Positions 8,701 through 63,642 of a stretch of 64,000 nucleotides of DNA are shown here, piece by piece. Position numbers and translations under genes: made by a program. The notes under the pieces were generated by a model. That model made no database searches. It saw only the letters and a program-made list of their open reading frames with translations, and was not told where the DNA came from. The stretch is from Branchiostoma floridae (lineage: Eukaryota > Chordata > Leptocardii > Amphioxiformes > Branchiostomatidae), in NCBI RefSeq assembly GCF_000003815.2, contig NC_049991.1:11690917-11754916 (forward strand), read 5' to 3'. How positions within the stretch are numbered: the first letter of the stretch is position 1; each line of letters starts with the position of its first letter.

Positions 8701-11362
8701 TATATCATTATGAACACCTTTGCCTAAGCTACCTGCACTCCTAAACTGATGCCAATCCGTCAATCCTTTCTGCAGTTATCCACTTTGGAATGTCTTGACA
8801 AAAACGCCCCTGCAGTTCCGAAATTACATGTTAGGGGGCTGAAATCTGCCCCACTTTGTCATGTCACTGCAAGCTATCTACCACCCAAATGTCAAGACTA
8901 TATCATGTCCGGGACAAGAGATACATTGAAAAAACTGCCATGATAGAATATTCTCATCAATTATGCAAATTTACTCCTATTTTGCATAATTGGTATCTTA
9001 TCTTGTACAACATTGTCTAAGGTACCTACATACCAAAAATCATGAAAATCCATTGTTCCCTTCTTGAGTTATCCTCTTCAGAAGTTTTTGACAAAAATGC
9101 CCCTGCTATCCCAAACGTAGTCGGTAGGGGGCCAAAACTTATGTCACTTATTCCTGAGCACAAGAGCTATCTAACACTCAAAAATCGTGACCATAGCGTG
9201 TTCAGAACACGAGATAGCAAAACCGGAAGTTGCACTGCAGTACCAAGGGAAGCCGCTAGGGGGCCCAAAATCTAATCACTTCTAGCTTTCACCGCACCCC
9301 ACTAACACACCAAGTATGAAACTAATCCATCCAGCCGTTCTTGAGTAATCTTGTTGACAGACAGACAGACAGACAGACAGAAACACACACACACAAACGC
9401 TGGGTAAAATATAACCTCCATGACATTTCATGGAGGTAATGACACTGCCAACCAGTTAGCTTTCACCTGTCTCTCACCATTGTCACTGAATTTGTGTGTC
9501 CCTTTGTGGATCTTCAGTGTCGATCCATACTTCAGCGGATGGTCAACGGACGACACGTACATCAAGGTCTACAGTACGGGCTACATCCTGTGGGAGATGC
9601 CCACCGTCACCATGTCTTCCTGTCATCTCGACGTCTCCAGCTTCCCGTTCGACTCACAGACCTGCGTCCTCAAGTTTGGACCCTGGATCCACAGCGGCAA
9701 GGAACTAGACATGCGAAGCATGGCTGATGAGGGAAGCCTGGAGAGCTTCATCGACCATCCTGAATGGGAAGTCGGCTCCTTCAAGGCAAAGCGTCACATG
9801 ATCTGGTACGGTGAAGACTTCAACATCGGAACGCCCTACGCAGACGTCACCTTCAAACTTGTACTCAAACGGAAGTCGACGTTCTACGTGTTCAACCTGT
9901 TGCTGCCGTGCCTGTTGCTGACGTTTGTTATGACGGCTACCTTCTTCTTACCGAGTAACTGTGGGGAGAAACTGTCCTTCGGGGTTTCACTCCTTCTGTC
10001 CATGGTGGTTTTCCAACTTGTGCTCACAGACGTACTCCCAGAGTCCGACAACTTGCCGTGGATAGGTAAGCATGAAAACACTCACTTTTCACTTTTAACG
10101 TTACTATGTAAGATAACTATTTTTCCAGGAAACAATGTATGTTTTACAAACTGACAGTCACATTCCAAACAAACTCCATGAAGATGTGGATGGCTATACT
10201 TGGTGCGTAAGTTTGCACCACATTCCCAACCTGTGTGAAACAATAAGGAAATTTTCATCCTTACGTCCACAGGAAGGTTTGTCATCATCACTATGATCCT
10301 AATGGCTGTCTCTCTCGGCATGTCGGTGTTCGTCATGTACGCCTGCGACTCGTCCATGGGAGCGCGCACCATACCGGACTGGTCCAGAAAGGTTCGTTCT
10401 CTTCCTCCCCTCTCATGATCTATCTTGTCTGTCTGTGTCTCTCTCTCATTGTCCACATCTCTCTCATGAGACAAGAGTCATGTAGACAAGAGAGAGTACA
10501 GAACAATTCTATATTTGTTTCCTGTGTAACAATTTGAATAACAAGGGGCTTCGCTATTCGTACAAGTGTTCTCTGTAATTTCAAGGAAATAGTTTTTTTA
10601 AGGTTTTTAGTTCCAATAGCACCTGTGCTCGTCAGGGATGTATCCCCGGTCGGGTCCCGCAGTCACAACTCTGTCCCAGTGGACTGCCGGATGCCACGGG
10701 TGTACCTCTCAGTGTGCTTAAGATTAGCATACGTTACTGGGTCCTGGGTTCATTTTAAGTCCGACTTAAATTCAACCCGGGCCTCGGCCGAGCCCAAATA
10801 CCCGGGGCCACAAGGTGTCCCATGGGGGCCACGTAGATATCACGCCCGGAAATGCTAAAACACAGTCCGTGGGCTGCCCGACAGGGCCCCCTTTTCCGAT
10901 TGGGACCGTAGCCTAAAGCAGGGACGTCTGTTGCCTTTTTACCGTATGAAATAGCACGTGCGTTTCTGCCATGTCGCTCTGCAGGTGTTCCTGAAGTACG
11001 TGGCGACCCTACTGTTGATGGGGGACCTCTCCAAGCAGGGCATGGCGGAGTCTGCTGACTGCCAGGGAGAGTACAGCCCACCGGACCTGACCGCCCTCAA
11101 TAGTGTGGACAACAACAAGCACAACGACAACAACACCAACTCCAACGACAAGGCCACGTTAGCGCTCCATCACCTGGTGGACAATCTGCAGTGCGTGCAG
11201 CAGAACCTGGCGGGACTGCTGATGCACGCGCGGAGGATGGAGAAGAACAGGGCGCTGGAGAGGGAGTGGAGGAGCCTGGCCAAAGTGCTGGACCGCATCT
11301 GCATGCTGCTGTATCTGGTGACAGCAACTTCATGTTTAATCGCATTCGCCACGGAGGCCTGA
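3658..11362 (+). CDS. Nicotinic acetylcholine receptor-like subunit, non-alpha type (5' end missing)
   Basis: Cation-selective Cys-loop channel subunit. Exons seen: 3658-3782, 6062-6106, 7804-7913, 9518-10065, 10273-10391 and 10985-11362 (stop). They join in frame to 440 codons. The 45-nt and 110-nt exons match the classic nAChR exon sizes. Visible features are the N-terminal RLYRHLFNHYNK motif, loop A DIVLYQN, a Cys-loop with 13 residues between the cysteines (SSFPFDSQ inside), and loop B WIHSG. TM1 is followed by the TM1-TM2 GEK motif of cation channels, then TM2 ending LTDVLPESD, TM3, a short (about 80 aa) cytoplasmic loop, and TM4 after EWRSLAKVLDR. Loop C reads WYGEDFNIGTPY, so the vicinal Cys-Cys pair of alpha subunits is absent. 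That suggests a complementary subunit or an altered ligand. The signal-peptide exon was not located. The family is certain; the orthology group is not. Confidence 0.9.
4371..4441. repeat. 29-bp tandem repeat, about 2.5 units
   Basis: Three consecutive degenerate units share the core 'gacgctgta(c/a/g)gtcc' followed by 'tgcaaactc'. They lie in the first identified nAChR intron. No function is suggested. Confidence 0.7.
5702..5790. repeat. (GT)n microsatellite
   Basis: About 40 uninterrupted GT dinucleotides end in a GTGC variant. The apparent Cys-Val open frame through it is a by-product of the repeat. It lies in an nAChR intron. Confidence 0.98.
6655..6862. mobile_element. Small inverted-repeat element (MITE-like)
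   Basis: Two arms of about 50 bp, at 6655-6706 and 6808-6862, are near reverse complements sharing 'ctccaagcagatcctacg' and 'aagatagtact'. The spacer is about 100 bp. A related 'ctgcttggagattaggg' sequence recurs in GGH intron 3 (about 39090), so this is a dispersed family. No coding capacity. Confidence 0.65.
7804..7913 (+). CDS. nAChR exon of 110 nt (loop A region)
   Basis: This is an internal exon of the receptor gene, listed separately because its boundaries are diagnostic. It is flanked by an acceptor after 'tggtccacag' and a donor at 'gtgcgt'. It encodes AWNDSHLTWEP and DIVLYQ, and its last two bases combine with the first base of the 9518 exon to give Asn. The exact 110-nt length matches the corresponding exon throughout the nAChR family. 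Confidence 0.88.
8382..9440. mobile_element. About 1.06-kb element with short terminal inverted repeats
   Basis: The left end 'atacctccatgaaaat' and the right end (reverse complement 'ttacctccatgaaatg') form TIRs. The interior holds two diverged direct repeats of about 290 bp, each containing 'attatgcaaat' blocks and 'gacaaaaa(c/t)gcccctgc'. A (GACA)n run (9356-9380) and a CA run precede the right end. It sits in an nAChR intron only about 80 bp before the 9518 exon. No transposase frame is visible. Related AT-rich blocks appear at about 14510 and 15740-15980. Confidence 0.6.
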
Positions 11363-18357: not shown

Positions 18358-21300
18358 TCATCTGAAGTCTGGTTTGAGTGCCCAAACACCATTCCCTCCA
18401 GGGCCTCTGTGGAAGGTACAGATTCTATTCAACATGGAACGGAACACCACATTCTTATTGGTCCCTAGCTTCCCCTTGAACTCATCCAGAAGCTCATCAG
18501 TGGTAGCCTGTCCATCAGTGCTTGCCTGGAAAGCGATGTAGTTCCTGATTTCTACGATCATCTCATCATACTCGGACCCAGCTGGTGCAGTGGGTGCTTC
18601 CTGGCTGTTGTCTTCGTCTCCGCTCTCGTTGCCAGCTTCCAGCGACAGTTTGATGTGATTTCGAAGGCGCATCTGGTTGAGGAGGCTTTCCGAGGAGACA
18701 TCTTCTGCGGAGGATTTTGTGCCGGCCACATGGCCACTGAAGTGCTTCTTCTTTGGGATGACAAACTTGGCAGCCTTGGTCTCGGACTTTCCGGAACCAG
18801 AAGCACCAGCTGCTGCTGAGGTTCTCTTCTTACCAAACCTTGGCCTGTGGAGACAGAACGGGATATCAGAACAACTAATCAATGATGCAAGTGCTGTAAA
18901 TGCCGAAACGTTCGCGGTGGTTTAATGTTCATGGTTTTCATGGTGGCCACTTTACTGAGAACTTAAAACCACCGCAAAAAGTCCTTTTTCCCACTACCAT
19001 GAAATTAAATCCCTGCGAACTTAAATGCATTTACAGTAATGTCTACTCTATTGATCCTATTCCAGAAATCTGCAATTTTCACAAGCCATCATCAACTCAA
19101 ACCTAGCAGAGTATAAACAACAGAATCTGATGGTTGCAATCTGCACTTACTTCTGCTTGACACCAGGGGGCGCTCCTGATCCACCGTGTCTGCCTGTCCA
19201 GGTCGGCACACCCGACGTGGCCCCCAGACACTGCTGCCTGGTCCGCTTCAGGGCCCTGGCCGCCTCCTTGGCCACCCTGTCGGCCTCGCCCTCCACCAGC
19301 AGGTAGTCTGGGTTAGAGGACATCATGATCTTGTCATGCTGCAGGGCACTGTGAACACCTGAAACAAACCGCTGTGTTAATCATACAACTCTACACATAA
19401 CAAAGGGTCTGGGTTAGAGGACATCATGATCTTGTCATGCTGCAGGGCACTGTGAACACCTGAAACGAACCGCTGTGTTAATCATGCAACTCTACACATA
19501 AGAAAGGGAACACACAAAATATGTTAGGCATACAGCCAGATGTTGGTTTTGTGACACTATTATGAATGTGCTTTCCTTAGTCCAGATTAGGACCTGCGAT
19601 GGTCATCACTACTTTATTCAACAGGTGACCATCAAAATGGCTAGAAGAACACACCTGTAAACATTACATACTAGTACCGTCAAATGTATTCCTTAATGTT
19701 AGCTGAGCACTACCATCTAGTTACAAGTAGCTATAGTACTTGGCTCTAAGAATACAGAACTTGAACTGATTAACTAAGAACATCTTTCTGTTTATGAAAT
19801 TATCATGAACGTTGAAAGGTACCACTCTCCAACTTAAATTAAGTACTATTCACACCATATGACAACCCCTAACCTGACTTTTTGAAGAGTTTCTTCAGGA
19901 CATACTCCTCAGTAGCCTTGTGTGAGCCCTCTTCCTCCTCTTTAGCTGATGACTGGTATGCTGAGTGACGAGCCAGGTATTCTATCCTCTCTCCTTCCAA
20001 AGCTGAAAAGCACAATCACAACTAAATTAAGACTTGTCTATCTCAACCTTAAATAACTAACAAATTGGTTTATCCTTGGGATAGAGCTTTTAAGTGACTG
20101 ATACAATACTGACACAAACTAGAGACAGAGATATCAGAAGATCTACACACAAGAATCAATGTTTCTTTCCTAACAAATATTGGTCTATTAAACAAACGTA
20201 CCTGCATCCTTTCTCTTCTTTTTCTTTAGTTTCTTTCCCCGCTCACGAGATGTTGATGGCTTGCAAGTTTTCAATTTGGCAGTGGTGGCAGATTTCTCTG
20301 GAATGTCAGTCTGTGAGGTAGATACTTGGTTCAATGCCTGAGTGTCCTTGGATGACTTCTGGCTGTCTTCTATAGCACCATTATCTACATGCCTGTGCTC
20401 TTTGCTCTTGCTTTCACCTGCTTCAGCTCCATTACAGCCGGGACTGCTGCCAGCATCACCATTGGCTGACACTTTCTTCATCACTGAGTTTAACGTAGAA
20501 TTTCCCAGTTTCCATTTTGCCAACAGTCTGCTGACAGTTGCCTTGTCCTTAGAGCTGTCTGGTGTGGAAACTTTCTCTGCTGTTTTCTGTTTCCTTCTGT
20601 TGGGCAATAACTTCACATCAGGTTTTGGTACCTTCCCTGCATTCTTTGCCTTCCTCATGTCAACTTTAACCTCTGACCCTGTGCCAGCAAAGATGGCGCC
20701 CGTCTCCGTGCCTTCCTTGTTGTCATCACAGGTCAGGGTGAACAGCTCGTACATGTCGTTGGACTTGAAGAATCGCCGCTGCCGAGGGTCCTTCAGCACC
20801 CTGTTGGTGAGGAACTGTTTGAAGATCTGTCGGTGGTAGATCTTCTCCTCAATGGTCCCAGTGGTGAGGAGGCGGTAGATGGTCACATCCTTGCTCTGGC
20901 CGATGCGCCAGGCCCGCTCGCGCGCCTGCATGTCCGTGCTGGGGTTCCAGTCCGGGTCGAAGATGATGACACGGTTGGCTCCGGTAAGGTTGACCCCCAG
21001 GCCGCCAACTCGAGTGGTCAGCAGGAAGACAAAGATGGAGGTGTCCTGCAGAGATAAATCATTCAAAATCAAGTTCAAGTCCAACTGTCCTGTAGGCTAC
21101 TGACAAATATTACATGTAAAATCTCTATATGCAAATATACTTATGAAGAGAGCTTTCTATTGCTTACAGCCCAACCACGTGTTAAAAAAATGTACATGTA
21201 TATGTTTATTTTTGATTGAAAAGAAGCTGATGAAAAAAATTTGGCTAAAAATGTATATGTATATATTGTTGATGATTATACATGTATATCATTTAAACAC

Positions 21301-57755: not shown

Positions 57756-58003
57756 GCTATGACCAAGGTTTTAAAAAAAAACCTTGCTTATGATGATTTT
57801 CCAGAATTCAATCTTATAAGATGTTAAAAAAAATGGAATAATTAATGCATTGACATGTGGAAAAAGTCTAAAAGTGTAGAAAAGATAATGAAGGATAGCG
57901 TTACTGGATGAACGATTATGATAATGTACATGTACTACAATTGAACACTTTCTGAAGATTGCTAAAATTTTGAAGACACTTTATATTAGTTGTACGCTGT
58001 ACA

Positions 58004-58110
58004 TAGCCTGAGTATCATCTTCCGTAGTGACCGCTGGCTCATGACTTTCGCTTGTTAACCACACAAAAGTCGTGAGCCAGTGGTCACTACGGAGGATGAT
58101 ACTCAGGCTA
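58004..58110. mobile_element. 107-bp near-perfect palindromic MITE
   Basis: The element starts 'tagcctgagtatcatc' and is palindromic around about 58055. It is flanked by 'gctgtacat' and 'gctatacat', a 9-bp duplication with one mismatch. GGH1 shows an uninterrupted 'gatgtacatgtaac'. The TAGCCTG terminus links it to the 57436 element. Confidence 0.85.
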
Positions 58111-58716
58111 TGCTATACATGTAACTAACTTACATTATGTTACACTAGTACTGCTATAACAAGAATATGATCTATGCAAACTGTTTCTTTTTAAAAGTGC
58201 TAAATGCAGTATTTATGGTGCCTGTAAGGACTGTCTATTTCAGATCACATTGCTGCTATGACTTTCAAAAATGCACATCTTGTGTGAATATTACTCATCT
58301 TCTGGGGTGATTTTATTGAGTTTTACTGTAGTGAGTTTTACTTTTCTGATTTTATTTTATGTATTCTTCATTTCTGCAATGCTAACGGCACTGTCATTAG
58401 TCTGGCCAATAAAATATCCTTTGTCTGGTGAAAAGTGTATACACCATTGATGATAGCATGTAAATCAGACCAGGTGTGACCATCCAGGTGGTTACTATGA
58501 GACAAAGGCATTTAGCAGAACAGCAGCGAGGGCATAACTTTTGCCAGAGGTGTGGAAGGCTGACACACCTGCCCAACAGAGCATACCATAACCCAGTTGT
58601 CTCTTGTTTTGTTAATACCCACTGGCCAAAATAGTACCTTGGGCAGCTGGGCTAGCCCTTGATACTGTTTCAAATGTCTTGCAACCACGATATCTTGGAG
58701 ATACTTTTTCCCCACT

Positions 58717-59748: not shown

Positions 59749-61321
59749 CTACATTTGACCCTTTAGGACATACACCTCAGACATGAGGTCCTTGAGGTAC
59801 TTTATTTCCCTCGTCATTTGATCAACTTTTTCCTTTAGCTCAGCATTGCGCTTCTCCAGACCTTCGTGCTGTGAGAGCAGGGTCTGCTGCTCAGAGCGTT
59901 TCTTCTCACGGTAGCGCGTAGCTGCGTTCTTGTTCTGGTCCCGCTTCTTCTCTTTCTTCTGCCGGGGGCAGGCTGAAGTGCGAGCTGCGCTCTTCGTACG
60001 CGGGCTGCGTGGCTTCTTGGCCTCGGGCTGCCCGACGGATGAAACATCAGACACACTTGATGCGTGACGTTTGCGGCTGGCGGGACTTGACGCGGGCGTG
60101 GACTGGTAGGACTCAGGGCTGGATGGTGGGGTCGGCTCACTGATGGGTTCAACCAAAAGCTTTGCAAGCAGCTCAGTGGAGGCGAAACTCTGCTGGGTTG
60201 GGGACGAAGGCGCAGACACCGGAGGGGTGGACACGGTGCTGGACGCTACAGACGTGGTGAGGAAGTCTGCTCCGCTCAGGGTGGTGGCCACTGGAGTCAG
60301 GTTGGAATAGCTCATGGGGGCGGGGAATGGGCTGGGCTCTTCCTTCACGTCGGCCAACAGAGGGAGCAGCTCACCTGGCCCGGAGGTCAGCAGGGGGCTC
60401 CCGATCCCAAACTCTGTCAGGGGCTTCTCCTCCACCAGGTCCATGCCAAATGCGGACTCCAGGCTGAAGGGGCCCACGGACATGCTGTCCAACAGGGCTG
60501 TCGGGTTGGGCATGTTCATGTCCTGCGCCGTCTTCTCGATGAGAGACTCCAACAGGTTGAATTCTGTCATCCAATCCGCTTCAGGGAAAGGCTCATCACC
60601 TGTAGGAACACATTAGTAAGAAATTTATTAGTATAATTTCATCAAAATTAAAAGAAAAAAAAACGTGGGTGCATCCAATGCTGTCACAAACAAGGCCATT
60701 AAACATTTTCCTTCGGGAGCCATCCAACAGATGTGATCTGAACCATTAAGGGAACAGGTAGGGCCGGGTAGCAACAGGGCTAAAAATAGCACCAATAGGG
60801 AAGCCCTGCCATTCCCTTTCATTTCATGCTAATCACCTGTTTTTCCCCGCAGCAGGTCAGCTGCGACCAATGGGGCTCTACATTTTGATGAATCTGTTTA
60901 CAAGAAAGGAGCCGAAAACAGCTGATTCAGGGAAACACGACAAGCCCCTGGGGAACCGTGACGTATCGGGATTCAAAGACTTGAGAAAAACATGTTTGTT
61001 CGCACAATGGCGCTGAGAAAAACAAGTCGTCATTTCCGGTCCCAAAGATCTGTTTTTGGACAAAACGGTCAGCAACGACAGATGGAAAATTATGCGTTGA
61101 AAGGAAAATATTATTAACTTACCAAGAGGAGGCAGATCCAGGGGGCCCGTGAGACCGATGCCGTCGGGCTGGAGTTGACTGCCTCCCGCGGCGGCTCCTG
61201 TGTTGCTCCCGGTGGCTTCAGGTTGGCCACTACCTTTGATCGGCGAGAAGACGTCGTTGGGGAGCAGGTCCCCGCTCAGCAGGGACAGCTCGTCGCTGTA
61301 CAGGCTCATGCTCAGACTCAT
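59749..61321 (-). CDS. ATF4: ATF4/ATF5-like bZIP transcription factor
   Basis: Effector of the integrated stress response that binds CRE/C-EBP-ATF sites as a bZIP dimer in the nucleus. Two coding exons, 61321-61123 and 60599-59749, total 1050 nt, 349 aa (human ATF4 351). Key matches: DWMTE (75-79), which mirrors ATF4 DWMLE; a Ser/Pro-rich SPESY motif in the middle; and a basic region with NKNAATRYREKKRSEQ (about 289-304). The leucine zipper ends EIKYLKDLMSEV, as in ATF4 KEIQYLKDLIEEV. The DSG phosphodegron that precedes SPESY in human ATF4 is not present here (PTPPSSPESY). It is probably the pre-duplication homolog of vertebrate ATF4 and ATF5. Its translation is likely uORF-controlled (see the two uORF entries). 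Confidence 0.93.
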
Positions 61322-62061
61322 CGCTCGTCGTTTTTATTCTGAAGACAGGGAAGAAAAGCTGACGTTCGGGTTCACGTTCAAGCTCAGTTCTGTCGAAGTC
61401 CGTTTCCGTTGGGGCCAAGATTATACTTGGTATGATAAAGCCATTTTGCGAACTGTGGGAGACAAAAAAATAACACGGATGAGTTTGAGTCCTTCTGCGA
61501 TGATGACAAAATGCTTTTAGCTGCCATCGCCAAGCCACGCAAACCGGTTTCCTTTTGTGTACTGCGCCATGCCACATCATAATCTCACCATATACAAGGA
61601 CACCAAATATACCCTATCATGTGGACTGATTTTCCCACATCAAGACACATAAGTAACAAGAGTCATTTACGTTGCTAAAAAAAACATGAAAATCAAACTT
61701 TAAAATCAATACTTTTTTAGTCTTCCAAGAAATGCCGAAGGAAGTGCGAACAAGCCAGACTGTTACCTACTTTTTGGACAAGGTAAGGCCGATGACAACC
61801 CATTTACGGAACAGAAGCTTGAGCTCATACATAACTATAACTATGTAACAGATCATAACGTACAATTCGTTTTAATTTAGTCACCAATAATTTTAACCAA
61901 AAATCTGCCAGGACTGAAATGGCGCCAAATAGTAACAAAGCCGGATCTAACCGGGGTGGCCACCATATTGTGTTGCGAAATCATGTTGCCAACAGTCTGA
62001 AATACACCATATACATCACAAAATCTCTCAAAATTTTGACCAGAGTGAATACTTACTCCAT
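61230..62061 (-). promoter_or_regulatory. uORF2: spliced 75-codon uORF overlapping the ATF4 start
   Basis: The ATG at 62061-62059 is in strong context (CACCATGGA). Two more bases are followed by a consensus donor (GTAAGT) at 62056. Joining to the acceptor at 61452 (after 'tttttttgtctcccacag') gives 5 + 223 nt, exactly 76 codons with stop. The frame ends at 61230, overlapping the ATF4 CDS by 92 nt out of frame. Vertebrate ATF4 uORF2 overlaps its CDS by 83 nt. Translation of this uORF would bypass the ATF4 start. An ATG at 62166 is in the same frame and would lengthen it if transcription starts upstream. Confidence 0.75.
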
Positions 62062-62102
62062 GGTGTGAAGTGCAGCGGTTGCCAATGCAATCCGCGGTTC
62101 TG

Positions 62103-62114
62103 TTATACGGCCAT
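62103..62114 (-). promoter_or_regulatory. uORF1: three-codon uORF (Met-Ala-Val-stop)
   Basis: ATG GCC GTA TAA has A at -3 and G at +4. It lies 41 nt upstream of the uORF2 ATG in the same leader exon. Vertebrate ATF4 also has a 3-codon uORF1 that permits re-initiation. Its place just ahead of the overlapping uORF2 repeats that order. Confidence 0.72.
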
Positions 62115-62481
62115 CCTGAAAGGATTTTCCTAGCAATGTGAGTTCACTTCGTCGTCGGTTGTGCATTGAGAGAAGAATGTCGTCCAGACAGAGGGTCGGG
62201 GTTTTCTACACCATATCACTGCTAAATCACATATATTCATGCGCTAAAACTAAGATATATATCAAATACAACGTGAATGGATAGTTTTGAACAGTATAAA
62301 TCAATGGTTATAAAAAAAATATATTTTTCTAATGTAGCTATGTTCCATTTTTGTCCATATATGAGATAAAATGATTTTTATGAATAAGAACTCTTTATCA
62401 TACAGTGGGCAACAGTGCGGCAGTACATACGGAACTGTGGCTGTGCTGCGGCAGATGTTGCATCAGCCGGTGGTAAGGTTC

Positions 62482-62489
62482 TGACGTCA
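62482..62489. promoter_or_regulatory. Palindromic CRE (TGACGTCA) upstream of the ATF4-like gene
   Basis: A perfect CRE about 370 bp upstream of uORF1. Within 65 bp are an inverted CCAAT box (ATTGG, about 62519) and an E-box CACGTG (62542-62547). Such a cluster suits a promoter, which may face either direction. Confidence 0.5.
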
Positions 62490-63507
62490 TGAGCAGGATC
62501 ATGTGAGAGCTTTCAGCTGATTGGTCAGGCCAGGCGCCAGCCACGTGGACTGTGGCGGACACCTAGGAGAAAGTGAAGGTCCAAAGTACAGATGAGGATA
62601 GAGCTTTGGCGTATGTTTGTTTTGTTCACGTGAAACCTGGGTACAAAGTATCGGTCAGTAACCTCAAAACGGCGTCCTTCTTTCCGTTACATAAAATATA
62701 CGGTCGTTTTCAGTTGGCAGTTTATTCAGCTATCAGTGTGAATGTCCTTGGTCAAAATTACTTTTATTATTGTCCGACTCTGAGTATGGAGGGCATACCT
62801 CGCTGTATTTCAGCCATCGGTGAGAAAATGCCACGTACATTGTCTACAACTGCAGCAAAGAAATGCCAAGTCACGACTCTTGCGGCGCAGTATGTGTATA
62901 TAATGCGCCCGACAATGCAGGAGAGGTGTACCATGTCAGACCTCAGGCGCCTTTCAGAACACAATGTGTCACACCTATATAAAGGTGGTGAGCCACAGAC
63001 AGGTACAGGTGAATGGCCTGGTGTGTACTTTACAATCTTTACAGGTGGTGTATGTACCGTATGGCACCACTACATTCAAATTGGCGGCCTTAGATAAGCA
63101 CTGGATCATTGAAATTTGGCGTAAAGTAACGTTACAGAAAAAAAAAGCTAAATTTTTATCATTTGTCTTGTCTATTAAGATTTTCTTTTCAAAAGGAAGT
63201 GATAGATATAACAAATACAGCAATTGTCACAAAACTATAAGTTGTCATGTACTGGTATAAAATGGATCTGAATGGCAGTGCGTGCGTGCTCGGTTTGTGG
63301 GTGTGCGCACGCGCGCGTTAGCACCTGCATTAGCACGTTAGTGCACATGTAAGTTTTATCCAAGTGCAGTTTCAACCATCTCGAAGAACCTGACATGGTG
63401 ACATTTTACCAACCCATCCCTTCCGCCACCACAGGATCCTAAAACATTCAAGGTTGAGCGGAACTCTGATAACAGCTCTATAGTTATAAACTAGTGCTAA
63501 AACACTA

Positions 63508-63642
63508 CTATGAACAAGTTTTTAAAAAGATTTTACTATGAACAAGCTTTTAAAAAGTTTTTACTATGAACAAGTTTTTTTTTTTTTTATTTTACTACGA
63601 ACAAGTTTTTAAAAAGTTTTTACTATGAAGTTTTTTTAAAGT
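63508..63642. repeat. Tandem repeat of about 27-33 bp
   Basis: Four to five units share 'actatgaacaag' followed by a T-run and 'aaaaag-tttt'. One unit carries an expanded T-run. AT-rich and non-coding. Confidence 0.85.

Follow-up and report, generated by a model that had tools for sequence, protein, structure and literature searches.

Small upstream open reading frames (uORFs) in the ATF4 leader act as decoys through which animals produce this stress regulator chiefly when stressed. In human and mouse, the ATF4 coding sequence (CDS) is preceded by a short uORF1 (four codons with its stop) and by a uORF2 that overlaps the CDS out of frame, and the vertebrate overlap contains a conserved hairpin (PMC11058473). 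Paired ATF4 uORFs were reported in 2014 to be conserved in metazoa except nematodes, including insects, a mite, Aplysia, and Hydra; the same report describes a weak-context uORF upstream of uORF1 in ATF4 leaders and, in non-arthropods, an often present third short uORF overlapping uORF2 (PMC4176352). In Drosophila, according to PMC4433282, crc-RA contains two uORFs of opposite effect, the second of which runs 125 nt into the CDS out of frame; in mutation tests, loss of uORF1 lowered reporter output and loss of uORF2 raised it. The lancelet is not named in the main text of PMC4176352, and no lancelet ATF4 leader in print was present among the matches listed in our literature searches.

The locus described here is encoded on the minus strand of the window, i.e., the whole 64,000-nucleotide stretch of Branchiostoma floridae DNA that was analyzed. 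Its features are as follows:

59749..60599, minus strand: ATF4 coding exon 2, which encodes the bZIP domain; the whole protein has 349 residues
61123..61321, minus strand: ATF4 coding exon 1, with the main ATG at 61321 and a second in-frame ATG at 61309
61230..61452, minus strand: remainder of uORF2 as modeled, the last 92 nt overlapping the ATF4 CDS out of frame
61338, minus strand: exon start for a second possible acceptor, lying 114 nt (38 codons) 3′ of 61452
61421..61444, minus strand: uORF3, MALSYQV-stop, in strong context (A at -3, G at +4), nested in uORF2 in a different frame
61453..62056, minus strand: proposed 604-nt intron within uORF2, predicted from donor and acceptor scores and a branch site
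62057..62061, minus strand: uORF2 start ATGGA (context ACC ATG G), the last five bases of proposed leader exon 1
62103..62114, minus strand: uORF1, Met-Ala-Val-stop (ATG GCC GTA TAA), in strong context (A at -3, G at +4)
62164..62166, minus strand: weak-context ATG (T at -3, C at +4) in frame with uORF2, giving 110 residues if used
62458..62547, minus strand: promoter-like cluster of an E-box (62547), CCAAT (62524), and a CRE (TGACGTCA, 62482-62489), together with TGATGCAA (62458-62465)

The gene at 59749-61321 is probably the lancelet ATF4, as had been proposed in the initial annotation. The best PDB match of its bZIP part is 1ci6_A, transcription factor ATF-4 (E 2e-14), and coding exon 2 matches Pfam bZIP_1 (E 2.5e-10), identifying the domain as ATF4-type; the CDS, joined from exons 61321-61123 and 60599-59749, is intact over 349 residues. 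Its N-terminus aligned to that of human ATF4 with a score of 49, which was reached by 0.05% of 2000 shuffles. Across the 513.4-Mb genome, 13 bZIP family matches were detected, with no further ATF4-like match at E 0.01, and no second ATF4 copy was found among the best-scoring candidates of a search with the DNA of 62200-61100 and of a protein search. A retrocopy or haplotype copy that could have served as proof of the splice junction was likewise sought among these best candidates, and the searches returned only the ATF4 locus itself. A single ATF4-like locus fits an unduplicated gene of the ATF4/ATF5 ancestor type, ATF5 being the vertebrate paralogue of ATF4.

Several other elements were recorded in the window and genome. 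An inverted repeat downstream of ATF4 (57973-58141), with 76-nt arms that are 78% complementary and 17 nt apart, is possibly, at a guess, a small mobile element; upstream of the gene, at 63502-63629, an AT-rich 41-nt unit occurs in four imperfect copies at a spacing of 28-31 nt. A neurotransmitter-gated ion channel exon is located at 9408-10151 on the plus strand (Neur_chan_LBD, E 1.6e-22), and a Helicase_C domain (E 2.5e-13) at 20191-21096 on the minus strand belongs to a protein that is probably SNF2-type. A genome search for the W2 domain gave 11 matches, 10 of them over the cut-off, none of which was assigned to the eIF5-mimic protein (5MP).

Within the leader, the Met-Ala-Val-stop uORF1 (62114-62103) is short and in good context, and 41 nt separate its stop from the ATG of uORF2 at 62061, which is also in strong context and lies two bases before the donor GTAAGT at 62056, all in agreement with the initial annotation. 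The 76-codon spliced frame described there was likewise reproduced: joined from 62057 to 61452, uORF2 would comprise 75 residues plus a stop and would end at 61230, overlapping the first 92 nt of the CDS (start at 61321) in a different frame. On this spliced RNA, the uORF2 and main ATGs would be 136 nt apart. The two-uORF picture itself was incomplete, having overlooked the strong-context uORF3 at 61444, whose ATG would follow the uORF2 start by 13 nt on the spliced RNA and whose stop precedes the main ATG by 99 nt. In the unspliced sequence, the uORF2 frame stays open over 127 codons (61230-61613, minus strand), reaching back into the proposed intron.

The identity of the gene, the positions and frames of these elements, and the quality of the splice sites suggest that the leader acts as an ATF4 delayed-reinitiation switch, a reading to which a probability of roughly 0.75 is assigned. 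In this model, with splicing and transcription start as predicted, ribosomes would translate the 3-codon uORF1 and then resume scanning. With abundant ternary complex, reinitiation would occur at the strong ATG of uORF2 and translation would terminate in the wrong frame inside the CDS, yielding little ATF4; when eIF2-alpha is phosphorylated, ternary complex would be rebound late, uORF2 as well as uORF3 would be passed, and the 136 nt remaining before 61321 would give time for initiation at ATF4. A point against the switch is that the strong start of uORF3, downstream of uORF2, could intercept ribosomes; those late enough to skip uORF2 should mostly skip uORF3 too.

Compared with the human leader, the lancelet leader as modeled has the same uORF2-to-main distance modulo 3 (a remainder of 1 in both), and uORF2 would overlap the CDS by 92 nt, versus 83 nt in the human sequence. 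The human leader differs in its uORF1-uORF2 gap (87 nt versus 41 nt, the shortness of the lancelet spacing counting against the switch) and in the distance from uORF2 to the main ATG (97 nt versus 136 nt), while the nested third uORF of the lancelet is a further difference from human and mouse. Whole uORF2 aligned to its human counterpart with a score of 37 (shuffle mean 21.6; 0.4% of shuffles as good). The non-overlapping part showed no peptide likeness to the human sequence (score 20, shuffle mean 18.2, 30% as good), and the overlapping part was marginal (8% as good); a conserved uORF2 peptide was therefore not used as support. In contrast to the conserved vertebrate hairpin (PMC11058473), no folding signal was detected in the 92-nt lancelet overlap, 61321-61230 (z 0.50); a neighboring 101-nt stretch gave z -1.93, with 7 of 200 shuffles as good, and no claim of a conserved hairpin is made. 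No statement on an intron position in human ATF4 uORF2 was found in the literature searched.

As modeled, the lancelet leader also resembles the invertebrate leaders covered by PMC4176352, in that it would have paired uORFs with a third short uORF overlapping uORF2, and the weak-context ATG at 62166 (T at -3, C at +4) corresponds to the weak uORF preceding uORF1. As in Drosophila crc-RA (PMC4433282), there would be two uORFs, the second overlapping the CDS in another frame, the Drosophila pair having been shown to function and the lancelet pair being predicted. Of the vertebrate-type switch initially proposed, the part that holds is the ability of this ATF4 leader to adopt the paired-uORF arrangement of the human gene with a matching relative frame; the label "vertebrate-type" does not, as insects, a mite, Aplysia, and Hydra share the layout (PMC4176352). 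Likewise, an origin before vertebrates, put forward as a new inference, is not new, because PMC4176352 and PMC4433282 already report it across metazoa (2014) and with experimental tests in Drosophila, respectively.

On donor and acceptor matrices, the donor at 62056 scores 6.1, fourth of the 89 GT sites in 62600-61100, with an exon side (GGA) that is off consensus, and the acceptor for an exon starting at 61452 also scores 6.1, second among the 86 AG sites in 62450-60590. The latter had been called the only strong acceptor, which is incorrect, because 61338 ranks first among the same sites (6.6). If 61338 were the main acceptor, uORF2 would stay in frame (114 nt being 38 codons) and shrink to 37 residues, uORF3 would be lost, and the leader would be mostly repressive; delayed reinitiation would hardly help, because only 22 nt would separate the uORF2 and ATF4 ATGs, with the acceptor itself just 17 nt before the main ATG. 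This outcome is considered unlikely: no YTNAY branch site lies within 50 nt of 61338, which also faces a rival AG at -20, whereas 61452 is preferred because its branch site, CTCAT, sits at -28 with the stretch up to the acceptor free of AG. Since the two exon starts are 38 codons apart, both keep uORF2 overlapping ATF4, and only the distance from uORF2 start to ATF4 start changes (136 nt versus 22 nt); that splicing itself sets the switch, acceptor choice turning the gene from stress-inducible (61452) to nearly constantly repressed (61338), is very improbable. The 92-nt out-of-frame overlap is produced by three of the four acceptors tested (61452, 61338, and 61494, but not 61674), and intron retention would not free ATF4, because the intron itself carries ATGs (61580 and 61577) that begin the same overlapping frame. 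An additional leader exon joined at 62115, immediately ahead of uORF1, is not favored (acceptor score -2.0, AG at -14), and a cassette exon at 61674-61589, which would terminate uORF2 early, was set aside, albeit compatible with the data.

The main weakness of the switch model is the 5′ end of the leader. Transcription from upstream of 62166, near the cluster at 62547-62458, would produce a longer leader in which the AUGs at 62348, 62214, and 62166 come first, such that multi-uORF repression and leaky scanning would matter more than a simple pair; this is possible, if doubtful. The cluster is located in a GC-richer stretch (62600-62401), the next 200 bases having 21-29% GC, and from 62428 to 62166 there are eight further ATGs, of which 62348 and 62214 are in strong context. 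Splicing would not remove them, since none of the 17 AG sites in 62480-62060 is a good acceptor (best score -0.0). In the 9.9 kb beyond the cluster, all five ORFs of at least 110 residues are on the minus strand, and Pfam gave no name for either of the two that were scanned; because these ORFs revealed no neighboring gene, the cluster is possibly the promoter of ATF4; the start would then be upstream of 62166 unless transcription begins about 300 nt downstream of the cluster. Such a distance between a regulatory cluster and a start would be ordinary, however, and such motifs, taken singly, are not uncommon in the window (three TGACGTCA versus 0.56 expected, nine TGATGCAA versus 4.7 expected); moreover, the context of 62166 is weak, and a weak-context uORF before uORF1 is known in ATF4 leaders (PMC4176352). 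Alternatively, the ATGs might be incidental and the lancelet leader built otherwise. The strict arrangement was defined as a first strong ATG opening a short uORF and a second strong ATG opening an overlapping out-of-frame uORF. Among 10,000 dinucleotide shuffles with the splice fixed, it occurred in 0.63% for a leader starting at 62140 and in 0.45% for one starting at 62200; a strong overlapping uORF alone occurred in 9.6% and 7.7%, respectively, and an overlapping out-of-frame uORF in any context in 52% and 51%. When the start site and a single intron were allowed to vary, 131 of 4000 shuffles reached the strict arrangement, which counts against the switch. Sequence alone is thus only moderate evidence, and given the fixed-splice and free results, gene homology is the strongest argument; the gene being ATF4, where such a layout is expected, a chance origin appears quite improbable.

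Overall, with the switch as the preferred reading, the lancelet leader is probably a further example of the known ATF4 mechanism, useful but expected, in which the choice of acceptor and the nested uORF3 are worth testing. The known age of the switch is unchanged, as published work already places it across metazoa. If transcribed as modeled, this leader would add the cephalochordates to the known cases of the ATF4 switch, in an apparently unduplicated gene, and would show that spacing, uORF2 peptide, and nested uORF vary freely while the order of a short uORF followed by an overlapping one stays.
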